64,000 bases of DNA from Alcaligenaceae bacterium (GTDB lineage: Bacteria > Pseudomonadota > Gammaproteobacteria > Burkholderiales > Burkholderiaceae_B). Shown here one piece after another: positions 2,385 through 19,755 of this stretch (position 1 is its first letter; every line of letters starts with the position of its first letter). The DNA lies in contig CANCOC010000001.1 in NCBI GenBank assembly GCA_947379755.1, forward strand, positions 1 to 64,000. The letters run 5' to 3'. The translations under genes were made by a program, and so were the position numbers. Under the pieces are notes generated by a model. The model did no database searches. It was not told where the DNA came from and worked only from the letters and a program-made list of their open reading frames with translations.

Positions 2385-2394
2385 GGAGTAAATG

Positions 2395-3834
2395 ATGGAA
2401 TGGTTCGATGCCCACACGCTGGCCCGTATGCAGTTTGCTTTTACGGTTAGTTTTCACATCATTTTCCCTTCTTTTTCGATCGGGTTGGCAAGTTATCTAG
2501 CGGTTTTAAACGGCTTGCATCTTTTTACAGGTAAAGAAGTCTTTCTGACACTTTTTAATTACTGGAAAAAAATCTTTGCCGTTGCCTTTGGCATGGGTGT
2601 CGTGTCCGGCATCGTGATGAGCTATGAGTTCGGCACCAACTGGAGCGTGTTTGCCGACAAGGTTGGTCCGGTCATTGGTCCGCTGATGGGCTATGAAGTC
2701 ATGTCGGCATTTTTTCTTGAGGCCGGCTTTCTGGGTGTCATGCTGTTTGGGCGCGAGCGCGTGGGGCCACGCCTGCATTTCTTTGCCACGCTCATGGTCG
2801 CTGCAGGCACTGCCATGTCCGCCTTCTGGATTCTGTCAGTCAACAGCTGGATGCAAACCCCTGCTGGTTTTGGCTACAACGACGTGGGTCAGTTCATCGT
2901 TAAAGACTGGATGGAAGTAATTTTCAATCCCTCCCTGCCCTACCGTCTGGTACATATGGTACTTGCAGCGTATCTGACCACAGCATTCGTTGTTGGCGGT
3001 GTCGGTGCATTTCATCTGCTTAAAAAACGCAAAATCCACAGCACGCATACGAACAGCGGCTTGTCTCGCGAAGCCGTGCACAAGATGTTTTCGATGGCAA
3101 TGTGGATGGCTGCGATTGTGGCGCCGATCCAGATCATGGCGGGTGATGCGCATGGGTTAAATACCTTTGAATATCAACCACGCAAAATTGCTGCCATTGA
3201 AGGGCATTACGAAACCGTATCGCGTGCGCCCCTGATCCTGTTCGGCATTCCTGATTCGAAAGAGCAGAAGATGAATTACGTGGTCGAAATTCCCGTGCTC
3301 GGCAGCCTCATACTGACTCATTCAGTTGATGGCGTGATCCAGGGCATGAAAGTGTGGCCTCGTGACGAGCAGCCACCCATGGGTATTGTTTTCTTTGCCT
3401 TCAGGGGCATGGTAGGAATCGGCATGCTGATGCTCTGCATTGGTCTCTGGAGCCTGTGGCTGCGATACAAGGGCAAACTCTACGACACACCATTGATGCA
3501 TCGCGCTGCACTCTTGATGTCACCAGCAGGTTTCATCGCTGTCTTATGCGGCTGGGTGGTCACAGAAGTCGGCAGACAGCCCTACACCGTATACAACCTG
3601 CTGACGACGGCACAATCCGCCTCGCCAATTGATGCGGCTGCAGTGGGGTCCTCACTCGTTGCCTTCATCGTGGTCTATTTCACTCTGTTTGGCGCAGGTG
3701 TGTTTTACATTCTCAGGCTCATGTCCCATGCACCCTGTGAGGACGAACCTCATTCTTCACCCCCCGGGCCCATGCGCGCTGCCGGCTTTGTCCCTCCAGC
3801 GTTGCACGAGAATGACTCCAGGAGCAAGCCATGA
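2395..3834 (+). CDS. cioA: Cytochrome bd-type quinol oxidase subunit I (CIO-type)
   Basis: Subunit I of a bd-type terminal oxidase, which oxidises quinol and reduces oxygen in the inner membrane. The 479-residue length and short Q-loop fit the cyanide-insensitive (CIO) branch rather than long-loop E. coli CydA. Likely haem-ligand histidines are H21 (FTVSFHIIFPSF) and H187 (RLVHMVL). K264 and E269 in KIAAIEGHYE match the quinol-binding Lys/Glu pair, and GRQP is at 393-396. Two ATGs occur in a row (2392 and 2395); GGGAG at 2384-2388 is better spaced for the second. It overlaps subunit II by four bases, so the two are translationally coupled. Confidence 0.95.
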   Translation: MEWFDAHTLARMQFAFTVSFHIIFPSFSIGLASYLAVLNGLHLFTGKEVFLTLFNYWKKIFAVAFGMGVVSGIVMSYEFGTNWSVFADKVGPVIGPLMGYEVMSAFFLEAGFLGVMLFGRERVGPRLHFFATLMVAAGTAMSAFWILSVNSWMQTPAGFGYNDVGQFIVKDWMEVIFNPSLPYRLVHMVLAAYLTTAFVVGGVGAFHLLKKRKIHSTHTNSGLSREAVHKMFSMAMWMAAIVAPIQIMAGDAHGLNTFEYQPRKIAAIEGHYETVSRAPLILFGIPDSKEQKMNYVVEIPVLGSLILTHSVDGVIQGMKVWPRDEQPPMGIVFFAFRGMVGIGMLMLCIGLWSLWLRYKGKLYDTPLMHRAALLMSPAGFIAVLCGWVVTEVGRQPYTVYNLLTTAQSASPIDAAAVGSSLVAFIVVYFTLFGAGVFYILRLMSHAPCEDEPHSSPPGPMRAAGFVPPALHENDSRSKP

Positions 3835-4838
3835 CGATTGACTACGCACTCATCTGGGCGGGTTTGATCGCCTTCGCAGTACTGGCTTATGTATGTCTGG
3901 ATGGCTTTGACCTGGGTATCGGTATCCTGTTTCCGTTTGCACAAAATGCCGAGCAGCGCGATCAGATGATGAATTCCGTGGCGCCCGTCTGGGATGGTAA
4001 CGAGACATGGCTCGTCCTGGGCGGCGGTGGTCTCTTTGCTGTATTCCCCCTCGCCTATTCAATCATCATGCCTGCGTTATATGCACCATTTTTCATCATG
4101 CTGCTCGCACTGGTATTTCGTGGCGTGGCCTTTGAATTCCGCTGGAAAAGCCGCAACAGAAAGTACCTGTGGGATTTTGCCTTTGCAGGCGGCTCGACCG
4201 CCGCAACCTTTGCACAGGGTGTCGCACTCGGTGCGCTGGTGCAAGGCATCCCCGTAACGGGGCGAGCCTATTCGGGCGGCTGGTGGGACTGGCTTTCACC
4301 GTTCAGCCTGCTGACGGGTGCAGCACTGGTCATTGGCTACACACTTCTTGGGTCCACCTGGCTGATTTTAAAAACCGAAGGTACGCTTCAATCCATGGCA
4401 TTCAGATTCGCCCGCATCGCGGGCATCCTGATGCTACTAATGATTGCCGTAGTCAGCGGCTGGACCCCAATGCTGCACGAACACTTCATGTCAAAGTGGT
4501 TTGCCTGGCCTGCCATGCTGTTTGTTGCACCCGTTCCTGTCCTGGTTCTGATATGCGCAGCCATCCTGTTCAGGGGTCTGAACAGGCAACAGCCACTGGC
4601 GCCATTTATTGCGACACAAGGTCTGTTTATTCTGTCCTATATTGGCCTGGTTATCAGTTTTTTCCCCTACATCGTCCCATCTTCTGTGACACTTTGGGAC
4701 GCCGCAGCACCGGACAACAGCCTGAAATTCCTACTGGTTGGTGCCGCATTCCTGATTCCTGTTATTTTGACGTATACCGCCTATTCTTACTGGGTGTTCA
4801 GGGGTAAGGTTGGCCAGACCAGCGCCTATCACTCATAG
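3831..4838 (+). CDS. cioB: Cytochrome bd-type quinol oxidase subunit II (CIO-type)
   Basis: Subunit II of the same oxidase, 335 residues with about eight or nine membrane helices. The start is set by the ATGA overlap with subunit I. The N-terminal helix carries the conserved LDGFDLGIG motif and is followed by SVAPVWDGNETWLVLGGGGLF, both diagnostic of CydB/CioB. No small CydX-like gene and no CydDC exporter follow: the next gene is on the opposite strand and its 3' end overlaps this one by six bases. The pair therefore forms a two-gene unit, probably used under low oxygen or when haem-copper oxidases are inhibited. Confidence 0.95.
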   Translation: MTIDYALIWAGLIAFAVLAYVCLDGFDLGIGILFPFAQNAEQRDQMMNSVAPVWDGNETWLVLGGGGLFAVFPLAYSIIMPALYAPFFIMLLALVFRGVAFEFRWKSRNRKYLWDFAFAGGSTAATFAQGVALGALVQGIPVTGRAYSGGWWDWLSPFSLLTGAALVIGYTLLGSTWLILKTEGTLQSMAFRFARIAGILMLLMIAVVSGWTPMLHEHFMSKWFAWPAMLFVAPVPVLVLICAAILFRGLNRQQPLAPFIATQGLFILSYIGLVISFFPYIVPSSVTLWDAAAPDNSLKFLLVGAAFLIPVILTYTAYSYWVFRGKVGQTSAYHS

Positions 4839-5390
4839 TGCATGACGCTGGGCCGTACTGAGTTCGACCCAGCTCCCCGGCGCCAGTTCTCCCAGCTGCA
4901 ACGTCCCCATACTCACGCGCATGAGCCTCAGAGTCGGGTGACCGACCGCTGCGGTCATCTTGCGCACCTGACGGTTTTTACCTTCGATCAGTTCCAGTGC
5001 GATCCAGCAATCAGCAATGCTCTGGCGCACACGGATCGGCGGCACGCGGGGGGCAACGACTGGCTGCGGATCCAGCAACCATGCTCGCGCGGGCATCGTC
5101 GTGTAATCCTTGATATTCACCCCGCGCGACAAGTGTTCGAGCGCCTCTGCATTCGGGATGCGCTCAACCTGGGCCCAGTAACATCGCGTGTGCGCGTGTT
5201 TCGGATCCAGCAGACGCGTATTGAGGCCGGGTTCATCGCTTAACAGCAACATGCCTTCAGAGTCAGCATCCAGGCGACCAATCGGATAGACCTCAGGGGG
5301 AAACCCGAACTCTGAAAGTGTTCTGTTTGGTGACCCATCCGCAGTAAACTGTGACAACACCCCATAGGGCTTGTTAAAAACAATAATCAT
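4833..5390 (-). CDS. rluE: 23S rRNA pseudouridine synthase, RluE-type
   Basis: A small RsuA/RluB/E/F-family pseudouridine synthase of 185 residues. It has no N-terminal S4 domain, as in RluE, which modifies U2457 of 23S rRNA in E. coli. The catalytic motif GRLDADSEG places the nucleophilic Asp at residue 41, and the family motifs NKPYGVLSQF (residues 6-15) and EGKNRQVRKM (C-terminal half) are present. It converges on the oxidase operon with a six-base overlap and diverges from the histidine phosphatase with only about 40 bases between them, so the two promoters must be compact or overlapping. Confidence 0.9.
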   Translation of the reverse strand: MIIVFNKPYGVLSQFTADGSPNRTLSEFGFPPEVYPIGRLDADSEGMLLLSDEPGLNTRLLDPKHAHTRCYWAQVERIPNAEALEHLSRGVNIKDYTTMPARAWLLDPQPVVAPRVPPIRVRQSIADCWIALELIEGKNRQVRKMTAAVGHPTLRLMRVSMGTLQLGELAPGSWVELSTAQRHAL

Positions 5391-5430
5391 TGATAAAACG
5401 AGTCCTTACAACAAAACAGATCTGGATGAC

Positions 5431-6045
5431 ATGTCGATTATTCTCGTACGACACGGCGAAACCTTACTCAATGCAGCGCGTGCATTTCAGCCTTTCAATA
5501 CTGAACTGGGTCCTCGCGGCCTTGAGCAAGCCAGGCTGGCAGCCTACAGAATAGCCGAGTATGCGCCTGTCGCCATTCTCGCCAGCGATATGCCTCGTGC
5601 ATACAAAACCGCACAGCATATTGCTGAACAGACTGGACTGACACCCTCGACCACGCCCCTGCTGCATGAACGCAACTTTGGTGACTGGCGCGGGCAAAGC
5701 CACGCAAGCATTGGTGTGGATCCCAACACATTTGTGGGGACACCCCCAGGCGGTGAGTCTACAGAAACCTTTCAAAAACGGGTGGCTGAAGCCTTTGCAC
5801 TCGCCATCGGCCTACGGGCAAAACTGAATGGCCCGCTTGTGGTAGTCAGCCATGGCCTGGTGATCCAGACCATCCTGCAGACATGTGTGCAACTGGGCCT
5901 GCACACCATGCCAGAGCGTATTGCCAATACATCGGTCACAGTGATCGACGCCAGCGCACCTTATAGCGTGAGCGAACTGAACTGCACTCGTCACCTTGAT
6001 GGCAGCGATGTCGCAGAAGACCCCAAGAGCTTGTCAGGCGGCTGA
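5431..6045 (+). CDS. Histidine phosphatase (phosphoglycerate mutase-like) family protein
   Basis: A 204-residue member of the histidine phosphatase superfamily. The catalytic RHG motif is at residues 7-9 (R7, H8), with the second histidine in VSHG near H141. Such proteins dephosphorylate small phosphoesters, for example alpha-ribazole phosphate or sugar phosphates; no specific substrate can be assigned. The start at 5431 is chosen because it puts IILVRHGE at the extreme N-terminus, as in relatives; the frame upstream to 5371 overlaps the divergent rluE. Its stop codon abuts the stop of the convergent FccB gene (TGATCA shared by both strands). Confidence 0.88.
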   Translation: MSIILVRHGETLLNAARAFQPFNTELGPRGLEQARLAAYRIAEYAPVAILASDMPRAYKTAQHIAEQTGLTPSTTPLLHERNFGDWRGQSHASIGVDPNTFVGTPPGGESTETFQKRVAEAFALAIGLRAKLNGPLVVVSHGLVIQTILQTCVQLGLHTMPERIANTSVTVIDASAPYSVSELNCTRHLDGSDVAEDPKSLSGG

Positions 6046-7332
6046 TCAAGCCAGACTGTCCGCCCAGATATTGCGTGCCCAGCCCCAGGCATACGTTCCT
6101 TCCAGGTCTGAAGGCGCCGCAGATACGCCCCCAGAACCAGCAACAGTTTTATAGGTTTTCTCGACAGCGCTGTACTGATGCACGCTCGCCACATGGACGA
6201 CCTGTTTCGCATCGACAAAGCTGTAACAGGTGTTGGTGAGCACTGGCGAGGGGTTGACTTCCCAGTCATTGAGTTCTGCGATGATGGCAGCCGCTGCAAC
6301 TTTGGCATGCTGATTGGCCATATGTGCCGACTTGGGCATAAAGGCCGCATTCTGAGCTGAATCACCAATGACATGAATATCTTTTGCAGCAGTTGATTCA
6401 AAATTTAAAAAGTGCACCTGCGCCCAGCGCTTGTTCGAGTTTGCCAAACCGGTATCGACCACAAGGTCGCCAGCACGCATCTGCGGCAGGACGTTCAGCA
6501 CATCCGCACGAACATCTTCATTGATTTCAAATTTTAAGGTTCTTGTCTTCGCATCCACACGCATCACTCGATGCGAGGGTCTGTATTCGATCATCCCGGG
6601 ATATAACTCTGACCAGGCCTTCTTGAATAAAGCGGGCTTTGAAACAACATCCTGGTTCGCATCAAAAATCAGCACTTTAGATTTAGGCTTATTTTTTTTA
6701 AAATAATCAGCCACCTGACAGGCCCGCTCATACGGACCCGGAGGACAGCGATAAGGCTGTTCTGGGATCGTAATGGCAAACACACCACCATCCTGCATGG
6801 CAGACAATTGCTTATGGAGGGCAACGGTTTCGGGGCCCGCCTTCCAGGCCTGTAACGTGACACCGGCAGCGTTGGCCTGAACGAGCCCCTCAATGCTATC
6901 CATCACCAGACTGATACCGGGTGACAATAACAATTTGTCATAGGCGAGTGTTTTACCCGAGCCGAGTAAAACAGTTTTCTTGACAGGATCAACCCTTGAC
7001 ACCACATCACGCACCAGGGCAACACCATGAATCTTGTTCAGCGTGTCGTACGGCAGTGTCATTTCATCCAGTGTGCGCGAACCGCCGACAACAAGATTCG
7101 ATAACGGACAGGAAATGAACATCGGGCTGGGTTCAATCAGCGTCACGCGCGCAGTGTGGTTGGATAATAGCCGCAGATATTTAGCAGCAGTCGCTCCACC
7201 GTAACCGGCACCTACCACGATGATTTCTGCCGACTTAAGGCTGGCAGCAGAAGATTTTCCCACTGCGGCCACTCCGCCAATGAGCAAGCCCATTGTGGCA
7301 GTACTCTGGCCAATAAAGTGACGACGATTCAT
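6046..7332 (-). CDS. fccB: FccB-type sulfide dehydrogenase flavoprotein, Tat-exported
   Basis: Flavoprotein subunit related to flavocytochrome c sulfide dehydrogenase (FccB/SoxF), 428 residues. It begins with a twin-arginine signal (NRRHFIGQ) and a dinucleotide-binding GAGYGGATAA at 41-50. C75 in ISCPLSNLV matches the cysteine that carries FAD covalently in Allochromatium FccB, and C196 in RCPPGPYERA matches one redox cysteine. The partner cysteine of that disulfide (Trp-Cys-Pro in Allochromatium) reads Trp-Ala-Gln here, before FEST and HVIGDS. The start follows a strong GAGGAGT site. It is the last gene of the Sox/molybdoenzyme operon, 13 bases after its cytochrome partner. True sulfide oxidation is uncertain given the missing cysteine. 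Confidence 0.9.
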   Translation of the reverse strand: MNRRHFIGQSTATMGLLIGGVAAVGKSSAASLKSAEIIVVGAGYGGATAAKYLRLLSNHTARVTLIEPSPMFISCPLSNLVVGGSRTLDEMTLPYDTLNKIHGVALVRDVVSRVDPVKKTVLLGSGKTLAYDKLLLSPGISLVMDSIEGLVQANAAGVTLQAWKAGPETVALHKQLSAMQDGGVFAITIPEQPYRCPPGPYERACQVADYFKKNKPKSKVLIFDANQDVVSKPALFKKAWSELYPGMIEYRPSHRVMRVDAKTRTLKFEINEDVRADVLNVLPQMRAGDLVVDTGLANSNKRWAQVHFLNFESTAAKDIHVIGDSAQNAAFMPKSAHMANQHAKVAAAAIIAELNDWEVNPSPVLTNTCYSFVDAKQVVHVASVHQYSAVEKTYKTVAGSGGVSAAPSDLEGTYAWGWARNIWADSLA

Positions 7333-7345
7333 AATGGACTCCTCA

Positions 7346-7678
7346 TCATTTTTTACCCAGCACAGTCGCAATAATTTGCAACTGCTCATCGGTATATCCT
7401 TTGGCCAATTGCGGCATGATCGTACCGGGTTGTACGCCACTTTTGTAAGCCATCAGTCGTGTCAGCATCTCTTTTGGCGTCAGCAGATTGATCAAAGGCA
7501 TACCACCGCCTTCAATCCCCTTGCCTTCTGTGCCATGGCAATTGGCGCAGGTGGCAGCTAGGCTGCGCTGATAGAGAAGGACTGCATCCTGGCTTTGAGC
7601 ATCAGCAGCGGCACAAACACCGGTCAGCGTCACCCAGATGAACAGGCTGGCATATTTCATATATTTGCGTGCATACAT
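7346..7678 (-). CDS. fccA: Monohaem cytochrome c, FccA/SoxE-like electron partner
   Basis: A 110-residue periplasmic c-type cytochrome with a signal peptide, one haem site CANCH (C44 to H48) and a probable distal ligand M88 in TIMPQLAKG. The pattern LAATCANCHG plus QLAKGYTDEQL is that of the cytochrome subunit of sulfide dehydrogenases. A GGGGAG site precedes the ATG at 7678. It lies between soxA and fccB, so it most likely accepts electrons from the flavoprotein and may also serve SoxAX or the molybdoenzymes upstream. Unlike the two-haem FccA of purple sulfur bacteria it has a single haem. Confidence 0.88.
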   Translation of the reverse strand: MYARKYMKYASLFIWVTLTGVCAAADAQSQDAVLLYQRSLAATCANCHGTEGKGIEGGGMPLINLLTPKEMLTRLMAYKSGVQPGTIMPQLAKGYTDEQLQIIATVLGKK

Positions 7679-7692
7679 CGCTTGAACTCCCC

Positions 7693-8469
7693 TCACGGCC
7701 GCACGGCTGGCGTCTCAACCAGCAACCCGCGGGCACGCCACATTAAATACAATTCTAGATCCACGATTTCCTGAGAGTCGAAGGCAAACGGCTCGGCTCG
7801 CACGCCCGTCATGCAATTACGCAGCCGCCGTTCAAGTGAACCAACCGACTGCCACTCGAGGCGATAGATTGGATAACCCGTCGGATGCGCCTGGGGAATT
7901 GGATTGCCTGCAAGCTTCAAACCAGCGCGCTCCGCGTGGCACTGCGCACAAGACAGATTGAGTTGACCCATGCGCTGTTCAAAGATCTTTCGTCCCGCTT
8001 CAAGATACGGAGCATTTTCAGGCGTCTGCTCGATCGCAATCGGCATACCTTTTGACTGGTTGCCCACATACGCAGAAATGGAAAGTTGCGCCTTGCTTTC
8101 ATGTTTAAAGGGCTGTGCCTGTTGCTGATCGGTCCGGCACAGATTAATACGTGCTTCAAGATTGAGCAATTTTTTGTCGACGATTTTGGGAAAGCTCGCT
8201 GCAACGCCTTTCATGGACTGCTGTGCATCACCGTGACAGCTGGCACAGGACATCCCACTTTTCCCTGCCTTTTCCTGCCAGAGTGCCTGACCATCCAGCA
8301 CCCAGAACGTGGCGGGGTTTTGCATGGGGTCATCCTGCATCATCTGCGTCTGTCTCGACATCAACGCATAACTGGACTGTCGATCCGCACCACTCGCATC
8401 TGCACATACATTTGTTGCCATACATGAAAGTACGGCGAACATGCAAAAAAGGTGTTTGAGCCGGACCAT
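7693..8469 (-). CDS. soxA: SoxA, dihaem cytochrome of the SoxAX complex
   Basis: SoxA joins thiosulfate or related sulfur to the SoxY cysteine in the periplasm, together with SoxX. The 258-residue protein has a signal peptide, two haem sites CASCH (C75-H79) and CAQCH (C174-H178), and the conserved cysteine C219 in RNCMTGVRAEPF that ligates the active-site haem. It is therefore the dihaem form with the catalytic cysteine intact. The start codon overlaps the soxZ stop by one base (TGATG). No SoxB hydrolase or SoxCD dehydrogenase lies in this operon, so the product of SoxAX would have to be handled differently. Confidence 0.95.
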   Translation of the reverse strand: MVRLKHLFCMFAVLSCMATNVCADASGADRQSSYALMSRQTQMMQDDPMQNPATFWVLDGQALWQEKAGKSGMSCASCHGDAQQSMKGVAASFPKIVDKKLLNLEARINLCRTDQQQAQPFKHESKAQLSISAYVGNQSKGMPIAIEQTPENAPYLEAGRKIFEQRMGQLNLSCAQCHAERAGLKLAGNPIPQAHPTGYPIYRLEWQSVGSLERRLRNCMTGVRAEPFAFDSQEIVDLELYLMWRARGLLVETPAVRP

Positions 8470-8798
8470 CACGTCACGGCTATCTTGCCGGAGGTAGATG
8501 AGGCGTAATCATTGTCCCCCTTCCAGTTGAACTCAAGGGTACCGCTCTCGGTCGCAACCGTTGAAAACATGATCATGGGATTCGCACCCATCGCTGGATA
8601 CAAATCAGCCCTGAATACCTCTTCGCCGTTATAGGTACAGACAAACTCCCGAATAATGTCGCGTGGGATGAGTTCGCCTTGCTCAGTATGTCGAAAGCCC
8701 GTTTCCATATCATGTTGAACAATGATACGGATATCAATAATTTCACCTTTTTTGGCCGTAGCTGGCATGGTGACAAGTGTGCGTGATGTCCGACTCAT
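8469..8798 (-). CDS. soxZ: SoxZ, partner of the SoxY sulfur carrier
   Basis: A 109-residue immunoglobulin-like protein without a signal peptide of its own. SoxZ normally forms a heterodimer with SoxY and travels out with it through the Tat pathway. Motifs HDMETGFR and the C-terminal FNWKGDNDYASSTSGKI fit the family. The start at 8798 has GGAG five bases upstream and overlaps the soxY stop (ATGA), so the two subunits are made in step. Nothing in this subunit looks degenerate, in contrast with the SoxY tail. Confidence 0.92.
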   Translation of the reverse strand: MSRTSRTLVTMPATAKKGEIIDIRIIVQHDMETGFRHTEQGELIPRDIIREFVCTYNGEEVFRADLYPAMGANPMIMFSTVATESGTLEFNWKGDNDYASSTSGKIAVT

Positions 8799-9241
8799 AT
8801 TTGCTCCGTACACGCAGCGAGCGTAACAAGTGTGGCTGCATATCCCTGCCAGTAAGAGCCGTCACTCATTTGCGCAATGGCCCAGATGCGCTGGGAATCT
8901 GACAAACGAATCCTGGTTGTCACAGCGGCGCGTCCGGCACGTTGATTCATATGAAAGCTGACAATGTTGGGCAAAGGGTTGCCTTCCGCCACAATATGAA
9001 TGGCACGCACATGATCCTCAGGCGTCATTGGACTTTCAACAGAAACCTTCATCACGACTGAGTTGCCATTTTCGACCAGAGGTGGAATATCAAGCGTCAC
9101 ACGGCCCGTTCTGATCTTTGAGGCGCCAACAATCTGCTTAATCGCCTGCGCAGCTTCTGCTTCTGTGGCTTCGGCGTCCAACCAGGGATAGAGAGTGGAT
9201 GCCCCCAGGATCGTAATAAACGCACGACGATTAATGATCAC
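8795..9241 (-). CDS. soxY: SoxY-like sulfur carrier with an altered carrier arm
   Basis: SoxY holds sulfur intermediates on a cysteine at the end of a flexible C-terminal arm, normally GGCGG. This 148-residue protein has a Tat signal (NRRAFITILGAS) and the usual SoxY fold, including DHVRAIHIVAEGNPLP and the dimer-facing SFHMN. It ends in LAACTEQI: the cysteine (C144) is present but the flanking glycines are not, and four residues follow it. I checked the codons directly: the stop TGA is at 8797-8795. Both ends overlap their neighbours by four bases (soxX and soxZ). The altered arm suggests a different fit to partner enzymes, which is inference. Confidence 0.9.
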   Translation of the reverse strand: MIINRRAFITILGASTLYPWLDAEATEAEAAQAIKQIVGASKIRTGRVTLDIPPLVENGNSVVMKVSVESPMTPEDHVRAIHIVAEGNPLPNIVSFHMNQRAGRAAVTTRIRLSDSQRIWAIAQMSDGSYWQGYAATLVTLAACTEQI

Positions 9242-9702
9242 TGTTTCAAACTCACTAAAAAAGCGACAACATCCTCAATATCCTGAGCACTCAGGATCGA
9301 CTGGGCCGCATACTGCGGCAATACTCGGGTGAAATGTTCTTTACGATAATACGCAGGCATGATGCTTTCCGGATTGAACTGACTGGCGTCGACAATACGT
9401 GCCCTGAGTTGAGAAGCTGATAATCTGGCTGCGCTTGCAGCCAGATCTGGCCCAAGATTTCCCTGAAAGCGCTCTTCAGGAAACGGTCCACTATGACAAA
9501 GAATACATAAGCCCGTCTGACGACTTAATACAATCGCGCGTCCTCTTGCCGCATCTCCAGGTTGTCCGGAGAGCGACTCAAGAATTTCATCTTTCGAAAC
9601 AGCTTGTGCAAAAAGAGGGTGGGTCCAGTCCGTCAGGACCAGTAATGCACACGCAACCTGGATACATAGCAGGCGTGCACTCCCAACCCTCATTTTTTTC
9701 AT
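9238..9702 (-). CDS. soxX: SoxX, monohaem cytochrome of the SoxAX complex
   Basis: A 154-residue periplasmic cytochrome with a signal peptide, haem motif CILCH (C66-H70) and distal methionine M115 in NPESIMPAYY. The closing segment ILSAQDIEDVVAFLVSL is typical of SoxX. SoxX takes electrons from SoxA and passes them to the respiratory chain. Its start codon overlaps the stop of the molybdopterin-binding subunit upstream by four bases (ATGA). That physically couples a Sox cytochrome to a molybdenum hydroxylase, an arrangement I do not recognise from classical sox clusters. Confidence 0.93.
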   Translation of the reverse strand: MKKMRVGSARLLCIQVACALLVLTDWTHPLFAQAVSKDEILESLSGQPGDAARGRAIVLSRQTGLCILCHSGPFPEERFQGNLGPDLAASAARLSASQLRARIVDASQFNPESIMPAYYRKEHFTRVLPQYAAQSILSAQDIEDVVAFLVSLKQ

Positions 9703-11894
9703 ACAAGCGTCAAACCACTGTTTTTCAGGGGAACTGTACGATAACGTTTACCGGTTGCACGATAAATCGCATTCAACACAGCTGGCGCTGCCACGCAAAT
9801 CGTAGGCTCTCCAATACCGCCCCAGTCTTTGCCCCCGCCCTGGATAATGATGGTTTCTACTTTTGGCATCTGCGCGATGCGCATCGAGTCAAAATTCGTA
9901 AAGTTGGTCTGTTCAATCCGGCCATCTTTCACCGTGCACTCTTCCAGAAACAAGGCTGACAATCCATAGACAAAAGAGCCAGAGACCTGGCGCTCAATCT
10001 GCGAGGGATTGACGGCATAGCCACAATCGGTCGCTGCAACAATACGATGGATTTTGACTTTGGTACCGTCCTGAACTGAAAGTTCACAAGCCGCTGCCAC
10101 ATAACTGCCATAGGCTTTCATCTGGGCGACACCCCGGAACACCCCGGGCGCAGCAGGCTGGGTCCAGCCAATACGCTCAGCGACCGCATCAAGCACAGCC
10201 TGGTTGCGCGGATAGTCAGCCATGAACTTGCGCCGAAATACCACTGGATCCACGCCCGCGGCATCAGCAAGCTCATCCATGAAACATTCCATGAAAATGG
10301 CATTCTGATTCACGTTCACACCACGCCAAAAACCTGGTGGTATATGCGTATTACGCATGGCATGATCGACCATCAGATTCGGAAACTTATATCCAAAGGC
10401 ATGCTCTCCCCCGCCAGGAAGCAAGCCCTGGAATACCGCAGCGTCACGGCCCTTGTCTTTTTCAACAACAGCAGGACGCACCGAAGCCAGGATCGACTGA
10501 CCTGACAGCCGCATATTTACTCCGGTCAGATTCTTGTCTGCATCAAACGTACCTGTCAGCTTGCACATCATGCTTGGGTGATAACGACCCTGCGTCATGT
10601 CTTCTTCACGGGTCCAGATCAGTTTGATGTGCGTACCAGGCATTTCTTTCGCAATCCTGACCACTTGAGTGGTGTAATCCTGGAAGGCACCACGACGACC
10701 AAAGCCTCCGCCAAGGTTTACCTTGGTGACATCACACTTGTCTGCAGACAATCCCGAGGCCGCGATGACAGCTGCCAGCGAAGCCTCGCCGTCTTGCGTA
10801 GGGACCCAGGCGATGCAGCTCTCTGGCGTCCACTTGGCCGTTGCATTCATCGGCTCCATCGTCGCGTGATTCAGGTAAGGATAAAAATAAGTTGCTTCAA
10901 CTTTGTTTGCAGCGTCAGCCAGTGCTGACTTCATATTGCCGGATTCATTGCCGACAAAAGCTTGCTCTGCAGTCAGACCTTCTTCAAACATGGCCTTGAT
11001 CGTTGCGCTGGAGACTTTGGCGTTTGGACCTTCATCCCACACAATTTCAACGGCATCCATTGCGGTTTTGGCAACCCAGAAAGTATCCGCGACGACTGCG
11101 ACAGCGCTATCTCCAACTTGCAGGACTTTTTTCACCCCTTTCATTGCTGTCGCTTTGCTGGCATCAAAACTTTTTACTTTGCCACCAAACACTGGGCACT
11201 CACGGATGTTGGCAACCAGCATGCCCGGGAATTTCAAATCTATTCCATAGACCTGTTTACCCGTCACTTTGTCCTGAAACGTGTCCAGGCGATTCTTGGG
11301 CTGACCAATAATCTTCCACTCTTTCGGATCTTTAAGCGTGATTTCAGTTGGTACCTGCAACTTGGAGGCCGCTGCGGCAACCTTGCCAAAGCTGATTTTC
11401 TTGCCGCTTGGCTTGTGCGTAATGATGCTGTTGGCAGCAACACACTCGACAGCGGGCACTTTCCACTGGTCGGCAGCAGCTTGCACCAGCATGATGCGCG
11501 CAGCAGCGCCACCTTTTCGGACATAGTCTTCCGAGGTCCGGATACCACGGCTGCCGCCCGTACCAAAATCACCCCAGATGCGCTTGCGCTTCAAGTTTTC
11601 ACCGGGGGTTGGATATTCAACAGATACTTTATTCCAGTCGCACTCAAGCTCTTCGGCAACCAGCTGAGCCAGACCGGTGATGGTGCCCTGGCCCATTTCT
11701 GAGCGCACCACGCGCACAACGATTGAATCATCGGGCTTGATCACTACCCAAGCACCCACTTCTGGCGTGGCCAGTGCAGCCTCAGCACTACCAATTGCAA
11801 AAGGAAAGGTCAGTCCTAAAGACAGGCCAGTTGTGATAGCGGTCGAACCAACGATAAAGTTACGACGGGAAAGATTAGGGACGCGTGCATTCAT
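9699..11894 (-). CDS. Molybdopterin-binding hydroxylase subunit (IorB-like), Tat-exported, copy 1
   Basis: Large subunit of a xanthine dehydrogenase-family molybdenum hydroxylase without a FAD domain, 731 residues, resembling isoquinoline 1-oxidoreductase beta. The N-terminus carries a Tat signal (LSRRNFIVGS). Cofactor-binding segments include VRSEMGQGT, GTGGSRGIR and GGGFGRRGAFQDY. GGIGEPT near the C-terminus holds the catalytic glutamate (E696). The ATG at 11894 follows GAGGGG. Members of this type hydroxylate N-heterocycles or oxidise aldehydes with water and pass electrons through [2Fe-2S] clusters to a cytochrome. Its [2Fe-2S] partner is encoded 10 bases upstream and soxX overlaps its 3' end, so Sox or FccA cytochromes are plausible electron acceptors. 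Confidence 0.9.
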   Translation of the reverse strand: MNARVPNLSRRNFIVGSTAITTGLSLGLTFPFAIGSAEAALATPEVGAWVVIKPDDSIVVRVVRSEMGQGTITGLAQLVAEELECDWNKVSVEYPTPGENLKRKRIWGDFGTGGSRGIRTSEDYVRKGGAAARIMLVQAAADQWKVPAVECVAANSIITHKPSGKKISFGKVAAAASKLQVPTEITLKDPKEWKIIGQPKNRLDTFQDKVTGKQVYGIDLKFPGMLVANIRECPVFGGKVKSFDASKATAMKGVKKVLQVGDSAVAVVADTFWVAKTAMDAVEIVWDEGPNAKVSSATIKAMFEEGLTAEQAFVGNESGNMKSALADAANKVEATYFYPYLNHATMEPMNATAKWTPESCIAWVPTQDGEASLAAVIAASGLSADKCDVTKVNLGGGFGRRGAFQDYTTQVVRIAKEMPGTHIKLIWTREEDMTQGRYHPSMMCKLTGTFDADKNLTGVNMRLSGQSILASVRPAVVEKDKGRDAAVFQGLLPGGGEHAFGYKFPNLMVDHAMRNTHIPPGFWRGVNVNQNAIFMECFMDELADAAGVDPVVFRRKFMADYPRNQAVLDAVAERIGWTQPAAPGVFRGVAQMKAYGSYVAAACELSVQDGTKVKIHRIVAATDCGYAVNPSQIERQVSGSFVYGLSALFLEECTVKDGRIEQTNFTNFDSMRIAQMPKVETIIIQGGGKDWGGIGEPTICVAAPAVLNAIYRATGKRYRTVPLKNSGLTLV

Positions 11895-11904
11895 GATTGA
11901 CCCC

Positions 11905-12357
11905 TCAGGCTTTAGCAACAGAGTGAATCGCTGCGCGCACTTGCTGGAACGTGCCGCAACGACAGATATTTGTGATCGCAGCATCGATATCTGCATCAGT
12001 TGGTTTTGGATTTTTATTGAGCAAGTCTGTGACGGCCATCAACATGCCTGACTGGCAATAGCCACACTGTGGGACCTGATGATCAATCCACGCCTGTTGT
12101 AATTTGCTGAGTTTGCCGTTTGCTGCCAAACCTTCAATGGTCTGGATTTTTTGTGTGCCGACCGCACTCACAGGATATGCGCATGAACGTACGGGCTGAC
12201 CGGCGATCATCACCGTACAGGAGCCACATTGGGCCACACCACAGCCATATTTTGTACCCGTAAGTCCAACCTGTTCACGGATGACCCATAGCAAGGGGGT
12301 ATTGGGATCCACGTCGACAGTATGTTGCTTGCCGTTTATGTTGAGTTGCTGAGCCAT
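11905..12357 (-). CDS. [2Fe-2S] subunit of molybdenum hydroxylase (IorA-like), copy 1
   Basis: Small iron-sulfur subunit of 150 residues. The N-terminal plant-type ferredoxin domain binds one cluster through C39, C44, C47 and C59 (CGVAQCGSC, then VRSC). The C-terminal helical domain binds the second through the QCGYCQSG and CRCG motifs. It has no signal peptide, so it probably leaves the cell bound to the Tat-tagged large subunit, as in related enzymes. It relays electrons from the molybdenum centre outward. It is encoded directly before its large subunit, with a 44-base gap from copy 2. Confidence 0.93.
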   Translation of the reverse strand: MAQQLNINGKQHTVDVDPNTPLLWVIREQVGLTGTKYGCGVAQCGSCTVMIAGQPVRSCAYPVSAVGTQKIQTIEGLAANGKLSKLQQAWIDHQVPQCGYCQSGMLMAVTDLLNKNPKPTDADIDAAITNICRCGTFQQVRAAIHSVAKA

Positions 12358-12401
12358 TCGATCACTCCTGATATATATATCTTGGTTTAATTTTTAAATA
12401 A

Positions 12402-14615
12402 TTACGCGAGCGTCAGTCCGTGCTTGCGCAAGGGCAACTCACGATGCGGCTTGCCTGTTGCTGCAAAAATAGCATTCAACACGGCGGGCCCCACCACGCA
12501 AATTGTTGGTTCACCCACTCCACCCCAAAAATCATGGGTCGGCACCAGCACACACTCAACTTTGGGTGTGTCTTTCATCTTGGCGACTGGGTACAGGTGG
12601 TAGTTCAGCTCTTTCACAGCACCGTTTTCAATTGTAATTTCTTCATTGAACGTAGCCGACAAGGCCATCACCACCGACCCCTCGATCTGCGCTTTGACTT
12701 GGGAGGGATTGACGTGATGTCCGGAGTTCAGGGCAAACACCATGCGATGCACTTTAACCTGCCCGCCCGGCGTCACAGAAACCTCTGCAGTCGCCGCAGA
12801 ATAACTACCATAGCCCATAAACTGAGCAATGCCACGATAAACCCCACTGGGCAAAGGCTTACCCCAGTTCCCTTTTTCGGCAGCCGCATTGAGGACCGCG
12901 AGGTGCTTGGGGTGGTTCTTCATCATTTCACGACGGAATTCGAGCGAGTCTCGCCCTCCGGCGCGAGCGCACTCCTCGATAAAACACTCCATGTATATGC
13001 CATTCTGATTCGTATTCACACCACGCCAGGGCCCAACAGGCACATGCGTATTACGCATCACATACTCGGTCAGCAAGTTGGGTACTGAATAGCCCAGCTG
13101 CGCATCACCTGGTTCTTCGTACCAACCCTGCAACTGCCGCACATCTTTATTATTCTTGATTGCAGTCGGTGCGAGCCAGGCATTAATCGACTGACCAGAA
13201 ACACGTGCATGCAGGGCAATCAATTCGCCTTTTTCGTTCAACCCGGCAGAGAGCTTTGCCATTGAGGTCGGACGATAAAAATCATGGCTCATGTCTTCTT
13301 CGCGGCTCCAGACCAGCTTGATTGGCGTGTCTGGATAGAGTTTGGCAACCGCGACCGCCTGATGCACGAAATCTTGCGTTCCACCGCGCCGCCCAAGTCC
13401 ACCACCCAGATCGATCTTGTGCACGTCACACTTGTCAAGCTTCAAACCCGAGGCTTCAGACAAGGCAGCAATCGATGCCTCTGCGTTTTGAGTCGGCACC
13501 CAGGCTTCAGCATGATCCGCACCGAGCTTGACGATGCAATTCATCGGTTCCATCGTGGCATGTGCTACGAAAGGTGTGACGTAAACCGCTTCCACGATTT
13601 TTGCAGACGTCCGGATGGCGCCAGGCGCATCACCCACTTTCCGCTGCCAGAAGTCACCCTCAGCCTCAAGCCCTTCGCGCAGGTTTGCAGCAATGGTAGT
13701 ACTGGAAGCTTTGGCGTTGGGGCCAAGATCCCAATCGATTGGCAGGTTTTCGAGTGCATTCTTGGCACGCCACCATGTGTCAGCCACCACTGCTACGGTC
13801 GAGTCGTCGACCTTGACCACACCTTTGATACCACGCATCGCTTGAACTTTCGAGGCGTCAAAACCAACCAGCTTGCCCCCAAAGACCGGACAGCTCTTGA
13901 CTGCAGCACACAACATCCCGGGCAGCTGCATGTCAATGGTGAACACTTTACCTCCATTGACTTTATTGGCAGTATCGAGTCGTGGCAGCGAGGCACCGGC
14001 GATCGTCCATTGTGCAGGTTTTTTCAGCACGATTGCTTTGATATCTGGAGGCGCCAGCCTGGCAGCCGCATCTGCGACTTTGCCGTAACTGGTTTTACGG
14101 CCTGTGGCGGTATGCGTAATGACACCTTTACTCACTTTAAGATCAGAAACAGGGACTTTCCATTGATCAGCGGCCGCCTGCAACAGCATCATGCGCGCCG
14201 CAGCACCGCCACGTCGGACATAGTCCTGTGAGTCGCGGATACCACGGCTGCCACCAGTTGCCATCGAACCCCAGGCACGCCCACGCGCAAGGTTTTCACC
14301 AGGTGTCGGCTCTTGGGTGGTTACTTTGCTCCAGTCACAATCCAGCTCCTCAGCGACCAGCTGTGCCAGGCCTGTGCGAGTGCCCTGTCCCATTTCGGAG
14401 CGTGCGATGCGAATCACAACCGTATCGTCTGGCTTGACAACGACCCAGACGTTGACCTCGTCCACTGTTTTAAGCGGCACGGACTGCGCAGCAGCCGTGG
14501 ATGGTAGGGCAAAACCCAGTGCAAGACCAGCACCCGCGGAAGCCCCAGCGATCATGAACAGCCGGCGTGAAGAATTCAGCGAATTTTTTGTTTGATTATT
14601 CTGATTCATGTTCAT
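12402..14615 (-). CDS. Molybdopterin-binding hydroxylase subunit (IorB-like), Tat-exported, copy 2
   Basis: A 737-residue paralogue of the large subunit encoded next to it; long stretches such as LAQLVAEEL and VAVVADT are shared, and I estimate about half of the positions are identical. It has its own Tat signal (SRRLFMIAGAS), the motifs ARSEMGQGT, ATGGSRGIR and GGGLGRRGG, and the catalytic glutamate in GGVGEPT (E702). The start ATG at 14615 has AAAGG upstream. Differences between the copies around the substrate channel suggest two substrates or a heteromer; this cannot be decided here. The partner [2Fe-2S] gene ends only six bases upstream. Confidence 0.9.
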   Translation of the reverse strand: MNMNQNNQTKNSLNSSRRLFMIAGASAGAGLALGFALPSTAAAQSVPLKTVDEVNVWVVVKPDDTVVIRIARSEMGQGTRTGLAQLVAEELDCDWSKVTTQEPTPGENLARGRAWGSMATGGSRGIRDSQDYVRRGGAAARMMLLQAAADQWKVPVSDLKVSKGVITHTATGRKTSYGKVADAAARLAPPDIKAIVLKKPAQWTIAGASLPRLDTANKVNGGKVFTIDMQLPGMLCAAVKSCPVFGGKLVGFDASKVQAMRGIKGVVKVDDSTVAVVADTWWRAKNALENLPIDWDLGPNAKASSTTIAANLREGLEAEGDFWQRKVGDAPGAIRTSAKIVEAVYVTPFVAHATMEPMNCIVKLGADHAEAWVPTQNAEASIAALSEASGLKLDKCDVHKIDLGGGLGRRGGTQDFVHQAVAVAKLYPDTPIKLVWSREEDMSHDFYRPTSMAKLSAGLNEKGELIALHARVSGQSINAWLAPTAIKNNKDVRQLQGWYEEPGDAQLGYSVPNLLTEYVMRNTHVPVGPWRGVNTNQNGIYMECFIEECARAGGRDSLEFRREMMKNHPKHLAVLNAAAEKGNWGKPLPSGVYRGIAQFMGYGSYSAATAEVSVTPGGQVKVHRMVFALNSGHHVNPSQVKAQIEGSVVMALSATFNEEITIENGAVKELNYHLYPVAKMKDTPKVECVLVPTHDFWGGVGEPTICVVGPAVLNAIFAATGKPHRELPLRKHGLTLA

Positions 14616-14621
14616 GATCCT

Positions 14622-15119
14622 TTAAGCTTTGCTCACGCCAGCAGTGGCGTACTCTTTAAGAACATCAGCAAGTTTTTTCTGGCCTGCTGCGACATGAATG
14701 CCATCGCGAATACGTTGATAAGTTCCGCATCGGCAAATATTAGTCATCGCTGCATCAATATCCGCGTCAGTCGGTTTAGGAACTCGCTTTAGCAAAGCGA
14801 CCGCAGCCATCACCTGACCCGACTGGCAATACCCGCACTGAGGAATATCAAGTGCCACCCAGGCTTTCTGAACAGCATGGCTGCCATCTTTAGACAGGCC
14901 TTCAACTGTTGTAATTTTTTGTCCTGCAGCTCCCGACACCGGAATCGAACAGGAGCGAACCAGTTCACCGTTTAGCTGGACAGAGCAGGCACCGCACTGC
15001 GCCACACCACAGCCATATTTTGTACCGGTCAGACCTAGCACCTCACGCAGTGCCCACAACAAAGGCATATCCGGTTCAACATCGACTGAATGAACAACGC
15101 CGTTTACATTGAGTTCCAT
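14622..15119 (-). CDS. [2Fe-2S] subunit of molybdenum hydroxylase (IorA-like), copy 2
   Basis: First gene of the ten-gene minus-strand operon, 165 residues. Cluster ligands are C37, C42, C45 and C57 in the ferredoxin domain, with QCGYCQSG and CRCG in the helical domain. It is slightly longer at the C-terminus than copy 1 (extra segment [13 protein letters not shown]). An AAGGA site lies ahead of the ATG at 15119. No XdhC-type maturation factor or molybdenum cofactor gene is in the window, so maturation must rely on genes elsewhere. The operon promoter should lie in 15120-15459. Confidence 0.93.
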
Positions 15120-15459
15120 TATTCTTGTCCTTGGTCAAGTGTGGCTTGGCTGGGTTGGTGCATAGGGTTCATCTGTCGAGAGTGCGTGACACCCCAAAGA
15201 CGGGAGCAAAATGATGATCAATTCACAGGCCCAATCTCGCCTGATATTAGCTGAGGGAATCACCGGCGTCACCAGATTATTCAGACCTTTTCAGAACCGT
15301 CACATGCGGACGAGAGCACTTTAAAGGAAATCTTAAAAATAAACAGGCGTTGCGCTGCGATGCACAATCGATTGTTAGCAATTACCTGTCACTTTCACTA
15401 TTCACACGCCCGACCAGCAGGTAGGATCAGCTTTGGTATTCACTTTAAAAAGGTCGGCC
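15120..15459. other. Divergent intergenic region, Sox/molybdoenzyme operon and lipoprotein hydrolase
   Basis: About 340 bases without a credible gene lie between the start of the ten-gene minus operon (15119) and the plus-strand hydrolase (15460). It must carry both promoters. I could not find a convincing sigma-70 box pair or a clear dyad for a regulator, and no regulator gene sits next to the operon. Confidence 0.5.
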
Positions 15460-16560
15460 ATGAATCTGCTGTCAGCGTCTAAAAAATTAAAGAAATTCAT
15501 TTTTTATTCAATGTTAGGTATCACAGCAGCTGTCGCAGGCGGCTGTGCAGCACCGGCGGATTCGTCACGCAGCTCCAGCGCCATCACCGCAGGTGCCAAT
15601 GCTCAATTAGTCGTCGAAGAATTCATGGTCCCAAGTGCAGACCCAGGCATCAGCCTGTATGTGCGCAACAAGCGCCTGACCAGCACGACATCCTTTAATA
15701 AAGACAACGTCCTGCTATTTGTACATGGTGCAACCTATCCTTCAGAAACAGGGTTCGATTTGAGACTGGAAGGACTATCCTGGATGGATGTCCTCGCTCA
15801 ACAAGGTTTCGATGTCTATATGGTTGATGTGCGCGGCTATGGAAAATCCACACGTCCGGGCGAGATGGACCAGCCCGCTTCAGCAAGCAAACCGATTGCC
15901 GATACAGATACCGCGGCACGTGACTATGCTGCGGCAGCAGACTGGGTTCGTAATCGCAGATCGGTACAAAAAATCAATGTACTTGGACACTCGTGGGGGA
16001 CTGCTATCACTGCGCTCTACACAAGCCGTCATTCGGACAAGGTCAACCGACTTGTCCTCTACGCGCCAGTCTGGCTGCGTAAAACAGCGTCCCTGACTGA
16101 CTCGGGTGGAACACTGGGCGCCTATCGCCAGGTCACGATCGATCAGGCGAGAAAACGTAAAGACACCGGACTCAAAACGGGCCAGAATCCACAGCCTGAC
16201 GCATGGTTTGAAGTCTGGGCAAAAGAAACGTTTGCTTCTGACCCGCTGGGATCCCAGGCAGAGCCAAAGTTTGTCCGCGCGCCCAATGGCAGTGTTCAGG
16301 ATAGCCGCATATTCTGGAGTGCCGGCAAGCCTGTTTATGATCCGGCGCTGATTAAAGTGCCAACCATGCTGATCCTGGCAGAGTGGGATGCAGACACCCC
16401 CCTTTACATGGCTGAAACGCTCTTTCCTTTGCTCACCAATGCAAACCCTAAAAAGCTTGTCATCCTGAGTGAAGGCACACATTCGATCATGAATGAGGTC
16501 AAGCGGTTTAGTCTCTTTAACGAGGTCAGCCGTTTTTATCAGGATGAACGCGCACCTTAA
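15460..16560 (+). CDS. Alpha/beta hydrolase, predicted lipoprotein
   Basis: A 366-residue alpha/beta hydrolase anchored to a membrane. The ATG at 15460 has AGG upstream and opens a signal peptide ending in the lipobox AGGC (C29); a TTG at 15433 in the same frame is less likely. The catalytic triad is visible as S178 in GHSWG, an Asp in EWDADTP (D310 or D312) and H341 in GTHS. The oxyanion-region motif LFVHG precedes DVRGYGKSTRPG. The substrate is unknown; esters, amides or lactones are possible. It is divergent from the Sox operon. Confidence 0.85.
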   Translation: MNLLSASKKLKKFIFYSMLGITAAVAGGCAAPADSSRSSSAITAGANAQLVVEEFMVPSADPGISLYVRNKRLTSTTSFNKDNVLLFVHGATYPSETGFDLRLEGLSWMDVLAQQGFDVYMVDVRGYGKSTRPGEMDQPASASKPIADTDTAARDYAAAADWVRNRRSVQKINVLGHSWGTAITALYTSRHSDKVNRLVLYAPVWLRKTASLTDSGGTLGAYRQVTIDQARKRKDTGLKTGQNPQPDAWFEVWAKETFASDPLGSQAEPKFVRAPNGSVQDSRIFWSAGKPVYDPALIKVPTMLILAEWDADTPLYMAETLFPLLTNANPKKLVILSEGTHSIMNEVKRFSLFNEVSRFYQDERAP

Positions 16561-18993: not shown

Positions 18994-19755
18994 ATGCATG
19001 AATCGATCATTATCATTGTTCTGATTTCGCTGATTTTCATTGCCGCCGGGATCGTCAAGGGCGTGCTGGGAATGGGTTTGCCAACGGTTGCTATTGGCAT
19101 ACTTGGGCTGGTCATTGCACCAGTTGAAGCAGCTGCCATGCTGGTATTGCCATCGCTGATCACCAATGTCTGGCAGCTGATTGCCGGCACCAGCTTTGTG
19201 GCCCTGAGCAAAAGATTTGGCAGCTTACTGGTTGGAATCTGTGTGGGCACACCAATCGGAGTCAGCTTTATCACTAGTGGCAATACACACATTGTGACGA
19301 CAGGCTTAGGGGTCGTACTGGTTGGATATGGTGCCTACGGTTTAAGCTCCGCCAAGCTCCAGGTCGCAAAAAAAAATGAATGGTGGATGTCACCTCTGAT
19401 GGGCGTTCTGACTGGCATACTGATGGGCGCAACAGGGATTTCTGCTTTGCCCGTCGCGCCCTACTTTACTGCGCTCAATCTAAAGAAAGACGATCTGATT
19501 CAGGCCCTTGGTTTGTCGTTTACCGTGTCCTCCTTTGCACTGGCAGTTGGTTTGTACTTCACAGGCCAGTTTCAGATGGCGATTGCGACGAGCTCCCTGA
19601 TTGCTCTTATCCCCGCCTTTGCAGGGATGTTCCTCGGACAAGCCATCCGCAATCGTTTACGACAAGATGTCTTTCGCCGCTGCTTCTTTATTGGTCTGCT
19701 CGTGCTGGGAACCTACATGGCACTCAGGTCACTGAGCCTGGCTCTTGCGTCTTAA
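18994..19755 (+). CDS. TauE/SafE-family membrane permease
   Basis: A 253-residue integral membrane protein with about eight helices and the two TauE/SafE repeats (GIVKGVLGMGLPTVAIG near the N-terminus and GVLTGILMGATGISALPV in the second half). Family members export sulfite, sulfoacetate or other organic anions. It is encoded just behind the secreted hydrolase and about 4 kb from the Sox-like operon; a role in sulfur anion export is possible but not shown. Its 3' end lies three bases from that of the convergent flavin reductase gene. Confidence 0.88.
   Translation: MHESIIIIVLISLIFIAAGIVKGVLGMGLPTVAIGILGLVIAPVEAAAMLVLPSLITNVWQLIAGTSFVALSKRFGSLLVGICVGTPIGVSFITSGNTHIVTTGLGVVLVGYGAYGLSSAKLQVAKKNEWWMSPLMGVLTGILMGATGISALPVAPYFTALNLKKDDLIQALGLSFTVSSFALAVGLYFTGQFQMAIATSSLIALIPAFAGMFLGQAIRNRLRQDVFRRCFFIGLLVLGTYMALRSLSLALAS

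Follow-up and report, generated by a model that had tools for sequence, protein, structure and literature searches.

The classical Sox system has the enzymes SoxB and SoxCD and a SoxY carrier with a GGCGG swinging arm. Sox-type carriers are also allied to pyrroloquinoline quinone (PQQ)- and lanthanide-dependent alcohol dehydrogenases, and roles in maturation, redox control or protection are proposed for them in the accessible text of two papers (PMC11237559, PMC12997753). In SAR324 a flavocytochrome c is flanked by SoxY and SoxZ, with no other Sox proteins recovered, and in the accessible portion of that study the isoquinoline 1-oxidoreductase genes of SAR324 draft genomes are treated separately from Fcc-SoxYZ (PMC4782131). 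Here we describe a ten-gene operon in a 64,000-nucleotide stretch of DNA from an Alcaligenaceae bacterium (assembly GCA_947379755.1, contig CANCOC010000001.1; hereafter the window, meaning the whole stretch), in which sox and fcc genes directly follow two sets of genes for molybdenum hydroxylases of the IorAB type. Comparison of loci shows, at the level of sequence, that IorAB and a SoxYZ pair with an altered SoxY (SoxY*) form a unit, to which SoxXA usually and FccAB often belong. Among the papers listed in our search of the open-access literature, none recognisably joins an AACIE-arm SoxY, or SoxXYZA, with IorAB.

An altered carrier in a ten-gene operon

With 88.4 bits the window SoxY* (8795..9241, minus strand) falls short of the cut-off of 125 set for TIGR04488, the model of the thiosulfate carrier, and passes TIGR04487, the NCBIfam model named 'SoxY-related AACIE arm protein' (SoxY_para_1), with 195.6 bits against a cut-off of 172. 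It is a member of the TIGR04487 family, whose model name covers the arm only and gives no function. In translation the swinging arm (8798..8818, minus strand) reads AACTEQI in place of GGCGG; the main arm forms in the family are xAC-x-[ED], with GC-type arms in one subclade. In an alignment with solved SoxY proteins the arm cysteine of SoxY*, Cys144, takes the position of their GGC cysteine, and an arm cysteine is retained in all 65 SoxY tails from module loci. By these sequence criteria the window SoxY is an altered carrier and not a thiosulfate carrier, and an earlier note on this DNA, made from the letters alone, was mistaken in treating it as an ordinary one.

The operon runs on the minus strand from 15119 to 6046 in the order IorA1-IorB1-IorA2-IorB2-SoxX-SoxY-SoxZ-SoxA-cytochrome-FccB, as that note had described, and every one of the ten frames is intact. 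The first hydroxylase comprises a [2Fe-2S] small subunit, IorA1 (14622..15119; PF01799, 95.7 bits; PF00111, 35.9 bits), and a molybdopterin subunit, IorB1 (12402..14615), recognised by PF20256 and PF02738 and by trees. The second comprises the corresponding subunits IorA2 (11905..12357; PF01799, 95.8 bits) and IorB2 (9699..11894), the latter identified from Pfam domains, a tree and an AlphaFold model, and both pairs have Fer2/Fer2_2 and MoCoBD_1/MoCoBD_2 domains. SoxX (9238..9702) is a monohaem cytochrome c with one CxxCH (TIGR04485, 81 bits, cut-off 61), SoxZ (8469..8798) passes TIGR04490 (80.3 bits, cut-off 76) and SoxA (7693..8472) is a dihaem protein with two CxxCH (TIGR04484, 223 bits, cut-off 110). 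A short monohaem cytochrome c with one CxxCH occupies the FccA position (7346..7696; PF00034, 23.1 bits, cut-off 21.3), and the last gene encodes FccB, the flavoprotein of flavocytochrome c sulfide dehydrogenase (6046..7332; PF21706, 153 bits; PF09242, 80.4 bits).

Twin-arginine (RR, Tat-type) N-termini were read in the translations of IorB1, IorB2, SoxY and FccB. The SoxA motif RLRNCMTGVRA keeps the active-site cysteine in an alignment to 1h31, and FccB keeps the cysteines matching those of 3vrd_B; we take these aligned SoxA and FccB cysteines to have catalytic roles. Gaps of 6, 44, 10 and 13 bases separate IorA1/IorB1, IorB1/IorA2, IorA2/IorB2 and cytochrome/FccB, respectively. Overlaps of 4 bases each occur at IorB2/SoxX, SoxX/SoxY, SoxY/SoxZ, SoxZ/SoxA and SoxA/cytochrome, so the reported four-base overlap of a molybdopterin gene with soxX is real and most Sox junctions do overlap. 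From these overlaps we infer a single transcript for the operon; promoter- and terminator-like sites were no more frequent than in shuffled sequences.

Association of the carrier with one IorB clade

The first set of 65 loci consisted of the window locus together with 26 loci on named contigs, 20 drawn from the order and 18 from the genus; at least L033/L121 and L042/L065 are each one contig entered twice. IorB was found upstream in 58 of the 60 loci with at least 2.5 kb visible, and both misses (L056, L057) have GGC arms. SoxX and SoxA were missing from the same ten of the 65 loci, nine of which have IorAB, and no SoxB, SoxC or SoxD was present in the fetched stretch of any of the 65. Neither IorA nor IorB was found within about 6 kb in any of 21 control loci with GGC arms, all 21 SoxY tails being confirmed as GGC.

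A further census of 39 loci included one repeat (L262) and three GGCGG-arm loci without IorAB (L246, L265, L266), two of which (L265, L266) adjoin SoxB. The remaining 35, among them a few repeats of earlier loci, comprised 26 with IorAB on the same strand, 3 with divergent IorAB, 1 at a contig edge and 5 in which IorAB was missing from the neighbourhood. All five genomes concerned hold an unlinked clade IorB, 61-69% identical to IorB1 (G293:C202, G131:C10, G169:C37, G097:C83 and, for G263, L173 on C26), the L173 protein being assigned to the clade by tree and the other four by identity only. The proposition that IorB is always adjacent was rejected on account of these five loci. Another, that a GGC arm means no IorAB, is nearly true and was rejected because of L237, a member of the deep subclade described below, which has the arm VGGCNP together with IorAB. 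Except for G097, each of the five genomes with an unlinked IorB has as many clade IorBs as it has carrier copies scoring 100 bits or more, the two fragments in G169 being counted as one gene.

Co-occurrence was assessed in 34 chosen genomes with IorB counted at 47% identity or more. All 18 genomes with the carrier had IorB, compared with 1 of the 16 without it (Fisher p 9e-9); because most of the positives had been picked from loci in which IorB was already known, the weight of this result lies on the negatives and on the unlinked cases. In the lone carrier-negative exception, G311, 147 bases separate the gene from the end of its contig. In the wider phylum, IorAB was found in 16 of 16 loci re-fetched with longer flanks, FccB lying between IorB and SoxX in 14 of them; an apparent replacement of IorAB by FccB upstream of AACTEE SoxXYZA was an artefact of 1.5 kb flanks and was rejected once these were extended.

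Gene order is conserved in relatives, so the lack of conservation that the earlier note had named as fatal to its proposal was not observed, and the partnership recurs across alpha- and betaproteobacteria, unlinked copies included. Plasmid copies include a cassette in Methylobacterium sp. NMS14P, one in Roseomonas marmotae that matches the window in gene order but has a single IorAB pair, and one on Neorhizobium galegae pNg7g1 with a whole IorB match. On N. galegae pNgVX (L220) the IorB match is in two pieces and is absent from the gene table. The linked IorB of L174 (G012:C11) is otherwise full-length with one in-frame stop, which, as for the split L220 IorB, may be a sequencing error or mark a pseudogene. 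Overall, the partnership of altered-arm SoxY with one IorB clade is well supported in alpha- and betaproteobacteria by these comparisons. Among the loci examined, AACxE-arm SoxYZ looks always to be accompanied by clade IorAB, either adjacent or elsewhere in the genome, and the dependence looks one-way.

The main IorB tree compared 49 SoxY-linked rows, thinned of near-identical members, with 13 paralogues, four very distant ones of 17 being omitted; a later tree was thinned further. SoxY-linked IorBs, including IorB1 and IorB2, formed one clade against the 13 paralogues (support 100/100). Fifteen residues set the clade apart, being nearly invariant among its members and seldom seen in the paralogues. 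A tryptophan precedes GGxGEP in 49/49 clade IorBs (W691 of IorB2, at 9822-9824, in a WGGxGEP loop), where 13/13 paralogues have proline, and clade residues Arg61, Arg103, Arg116 and Arg514 occur in 49, 49, 47 and 49 of the 49. The GEP glutamate of IorB2 (E696) and its Mo-loop glycines are conserved. These clade-specific substitutions suggest that the enzymes have a special substrate or partner. The AlphaFold model of IorB2 (pLDDT 80, below 50 in stretches including the Mo-binding loops) is not good enough to locate the clade-specific residues; its closest solved fold is 8gy3_C (TM 0.83).

Subclades within this clade differ in the carriers that they accompany. Elsewhere, members of the IorB1 subclade directly adjoin SoxXYZA with ESACLD or ELACLE arms (L043, L080, L174), and those of the IorB2 subclade lie beside SoxY with arms such as AACTE and AACIE. 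A deep subclade, B3, comprises 16 loci (one contig counted twice) with mostly GC-type arms; all 16 keep IorAB and SoxYZ, and no SoxX, SoxA or FccB occurs in their fetched stretches. For this comparison arm and IorB types were assigned from the best match to four representatives rather than from a tree, and a few contigs are doubled (for example L043/L254 and L054/L259). Arm, SoxXA presence and IorB type move together, which shared descent alone could also explain.

SoxB, SoxCD and SorT in the genome and genus

Searches of the bacterium's own genome covered an assembly that is 94.6% complete. No SoxB was found: none lies in the operon, as previously described, and the best match in the whole assembly, at 58.5 bits, is far below the cut-off of 550, so that the soxB elsewhere in the genome that the earlier note had allowed for was not found in the assembly. 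SoxCD, also described as lacking, is indeed missing from the operon. However, contig C140 (L083 1-787) opens inside a SoxC-like gene, whose 76 residues match SoxC positions 333-408 with 110.5 bits; a monohaem cytochrome of 187 residues comes next, and the genome probably carries an orphan SoxC/short-SoxD-like pair. Because of this SoxC C-terminus the absence of SoxCD holds for the operon and is not shown genome-wide, and the proposition that SoxCD is missing from the whole genome was rejected. The broader proposal of a rewired unit of IorB-type hydroxylases and a Sox carrier stands as regards its conserved order and recurrent partnership; it had misjudged SoxY and the SoxC/SoxD-like pair that is probably present elsewhere. 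A second candidate for SoxC, on contig C78, proved to be the sulfite dehydrogenase SorT (622.9 bits, cut-off 570). The sole SoxZ match and the sole TIGR04487 match in the assembly are the window genes.

The orphan pair is complete in congener G302 (SoxC, 604.2 bits). At L135 8450-10340, where the complete pair is seen, the surrounding listed frames include neither soxYZ nor soxB. Across the genus, AACIE SoxY exceeds its cut-off in 25 of 32 genomes. SoxB is over its cut-off in 17 of these 25 and not in the other 8, which include a partial SoxB of 256 bits in G323, and is present in 6 of the 7 genomes without AACIE SoxY; from these counts, the AACIE-SoxY and SoxB systems have been gained or lost independently. 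Near-complete congeners G300 and G302 have no SoxB, and G300 has no SoxC match either. Both systems occur in G301, as a classical locus (SoxC, SoxD, GGCGG SoxY, SoxZ, SoxA, SoxX, SoxB) and a separate IorAB-SoxXYZA locus.

These distributions bear on the possibility that the operon is a truncated Sox/Fcc set for sulfide or thiosulfate oxidation that uses SoxB, SoxCD or SorT from elsewhere, the hydroxylases being incidental. Among genomes with a TIGR04487 match of at least 100 bits, SoxB exceeds its cut-off in 36 of 52 and SoxC in 27 of 51, and the bacterium's own SorT and orphan SoxC end are consistent with such a scheme. The 16 of 52 genomes without SoxB over the cut-off, together with G300 and G302, argue against it, as does the co-occurrence of the carrier with IorAB, which is far tighter than that with SoxB or SoxC. 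A further case is Bradyrhizobium diazoefficiens, whose SoxY2 is presumably of the AACIE type. Of the two soxY genes in this species soxY1 alone is essential for thiosulfate oxidation, soxY2 being non-essential, according to the accessible text of the report (PMC5748708). We consider inorganic sulfur oxidation with borrowed enzymes a rather improbable account of the operon.

Proposed role of the module and its relation to known systems

The reading that we prefer, to which we assign a probability of roughly 0.45, is that of a conserved, horizontally mobile periplasmic module of IorAB and SoxXYZA, with FccAB optional, for the carrier-linked oxidation of probably organic sulfur compounds; its substrate and chemistry we infer. 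IorB, SoxY* and FccB would be exported by Tat, and SoxXA would attach a thiol-type, probably organic, sulfur substrate to SoxY* at its arm cysteine. In place of SoxB and SoxCD, IorAB would then oxidise a carrier-bound or carrier-delivered compound, or a compound yielding the thiol substrate, probably by hydroxylation of the carbon next to sulfur. Electrons from IorAB would pass to c-type cytochromes, and leftover sulfane or sulfide to FccAB. In this bacterium the last steps, on sulfite and sulfane, could fall to SorT and the SoxCD-like pair, and the two IorAB sets on one carrier in the window perhaps serve two substrates or two successive steps. The more specific proposal, that the hydroxylase acts on organosulfur tethered to or delivered by the AACxE SoxYZ arm and replaces SoxB and SoxCD in a mobile alpha-/betaproteobacterial cassette, is possible but decidedly tentative. 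The module suggests a route of sulfur-compound oxidation that has yet to be described.

Several observations weigh against this reading. Three Sinorhizobium plasmids (L223, L225, L226) and Methylosinus pOB3b1 (L224) have IorBs that nest in the clade and keep its signature residues, and our search of these plasmids found no Sox protein within about 7 kb of any of the four. A SoxY elsewhere on pOB3b1 has a GGCGG arm and lies beside SoxB. From these loci IorAB can exist with no SoxYZ next to it and may work without a SoxY* carrier, and the proposition that IorB is strictly bound to SoxYZ was rejected. All four instead have a frame for a c-type cytochrome upstream of IorA, the one in Methylosinus containing 8 haem motifs. 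The census locus L246 combines a 132.9-bit family match with a GGCGG arm and no IorAB, the solved fold nearest to the IorB2 model is that of an ordinary aldehyde dehydrogenase, and clustering of frames from 47 loci gave no conserved neighbour that names a substrate. In genome G131, SoxC and a short SoxD (L228 1-840) lie about 3 kb from an ACLD-arm SoxXYZA (3835-5835), a layout that could serve conventional sulfane oxidation, as the borrowed-enzyme scheme above would have it, and that suggests, from gene position, that the short-SoxD pair sometimes serves a SoxY* carrier.

The carrier-free loci also bear on an explanation by electron coupling only, in which IorAB would oxidise an ordinary aldehyde or N-heterocycle, SoxXA and FccA would accept the electrons and SoxYZ would be a passenger. 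Enzymes of the IorAB family are known to use c-type cytochromes, the upstream cytochrome frames in the four carrier-free loci would fit such use, and the closest fold belongs to a membrane-bound aldehyde dehydrogenase. Against this, SoxYZ stays when SoxX and SoxA are lost, both in the 16 B3 loci and in the nine IorAB loci of the first set (the two sets overlap), and therefore argues against a pure electron-transfer role; these B3 loci are hard to square with the suggestion in the earlier note that the hydroxylases may do no more than supply the Sox cytochromes with electrons. The universally kept arm cysteine, and a carrier that predicts IorB even when the two are unlinked, likewise speak against coupling alone, which we regard as unlikely.

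A further alternative is that SoxYZ*, loaded with sulfane by SoxXA or FccAB, restores or protects the Mo=S group of exported IorAB. Sulfuration of molybdenum is usually cytoplasmic and carried out by XdhC. At L213 (12609-15126) an XdhC-MocA fusion and MoaA lie directly downstream of a complete IorAB-FccAB-SoxXYZA module, which suggests an ordinary sulfurated molybdenum hydroxylase, with XdhC not replaced by SoxYZ there. IorB paralogues also occur in carrier-free genomes, and the clade-specific IorB substitutions, pointing as they do to a special substrate or partner, sit poorly with a service role. Such a role would account for a carrier that needs IorAB when IorAB does not need the carrier, and for the SoxYZ-like carriers beside PQQ and lanthanide alcohol dehydrogenases described in the accessible parts of PMC12997753 and PMC11237559. 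On balance we think cofactor service quite unlikely.

The only widely shared frames in the 47-locus clustering were IorA, IorB, SoxX, SoxY, SoxZ and SoxA. A cluster of tripartite-tricarboxylate-type receptors, which are common in Burkholderiales, occurred in 15 of the 47 loci at varying positions; FccB was found in 4 of 47 at that clustering threshold, and the other clusters were single-lineage flanks or antisense frames. Next to IorA1 in the window is a divergent gene for a lipoprotein-like alpha/beta hydrolase (15433-16560, plus strand), which was rejected as a substrate marker; beyond the window copy it matches only L076 (at a limit of 1e-10) and a short piece of L032. An alpha/beta hydrolase is also divergent from IorA on Roseomonas marmotae p1318-3, but the census revealed no wider conservation of such a gene. 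Beyond the convergent neighbours of FccB, window positions 2392-4838 (plus strand) encode cytochrome bd oxidase subunit I and a subunit-II-like protein, matched also in L119, L121 and L033 (the last two being the same contig). A TauE/SafE family sulfite-exporter-like membrane protein (18994-19755, plus strand; PF01925, 94.2 bits) is encoded about 4 kb from the operon and also in L032. Near the carrier-free IorAB genes are arsenic genes in S. medicae and an arylsulfatase gene in Methylosinus.

Loci of this kind are annotated as sox and their owners credited with sulfide or thiosulfate oxidation, and if the module acts otherwise these credits need re-examination. We take Pnuc_1154-1157 of Polynucleobacter to be probably a SoxY*-IorAB module. 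Polynucleobacter QLW-P1DMWA-1 has three sox clusters, of which another, larger one may be classical, and in the accessible text of its description the sulfur-oxidation trait is credited without experimental confirmation (PMC3308952). If the carrier hands its substrate to a molybdenum hydroxylase, this would be a sulfur-carrier chemistry absent from the literature searched and, if true, a candidate periplasmic route for dissolved organic sulfur. The module can be tested directly in two named strains that have it, Polynucleobacter sinensis (L034) and Polaromonas sp. JS666 (L047).

The window FccB shares the FCSD domains PF21706 and PF09242 with flavocytochrome c sulfide dehydrogenase, and the arrangement of Fcc beside SoxYZ recalls that of SAR324, for which a linkage with IorAB is not drawn in the accessible portion of the study (PMC4782131). 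The SoxYZ-like carriers of quinoprotein dehydrogenases (TIGR04557), found in PQQ-dependent alcohol dehydrogenase and XoxF clusters, are likewise Sox-type carriers recruited by a periplasmic dehydrogenase. These are fused SoxYZ proteins with SoxH, whereas the window has separate SoxY and SoxZ, neither of which passes TIGR04557 (54.3 and 36.5 bits, cut-off 140), with SoxXA and a molybdenum enzyme. With IorAB and other hydroxylases of the xanthine oxidase family, such as isoquinoline 1-oxidoreductase and the membrane-bound aldehyde dehydrogenase of Gluconobacter (8gy3), the window enzymes share the [2Fe-2S] and Mo subunits, the GGxGEP motif and the RR leader; they differ in forming a separate clade, in the invariant tryptophan before GGxGEP, in extra Arg/Glu positions and in their SoxYZ neighbour. 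With classical Sox the module shares a periplasmic carrier logic, its SoxXA and SoxZ passing their own models (81, 223 and 80.3 bits) and the cysteines of carrier and SoxA being kept; it contains neither SoxB nor SoxCD, has AACTEQI for the arm, and adds molybdenum hydroxylases of another enzyme family.

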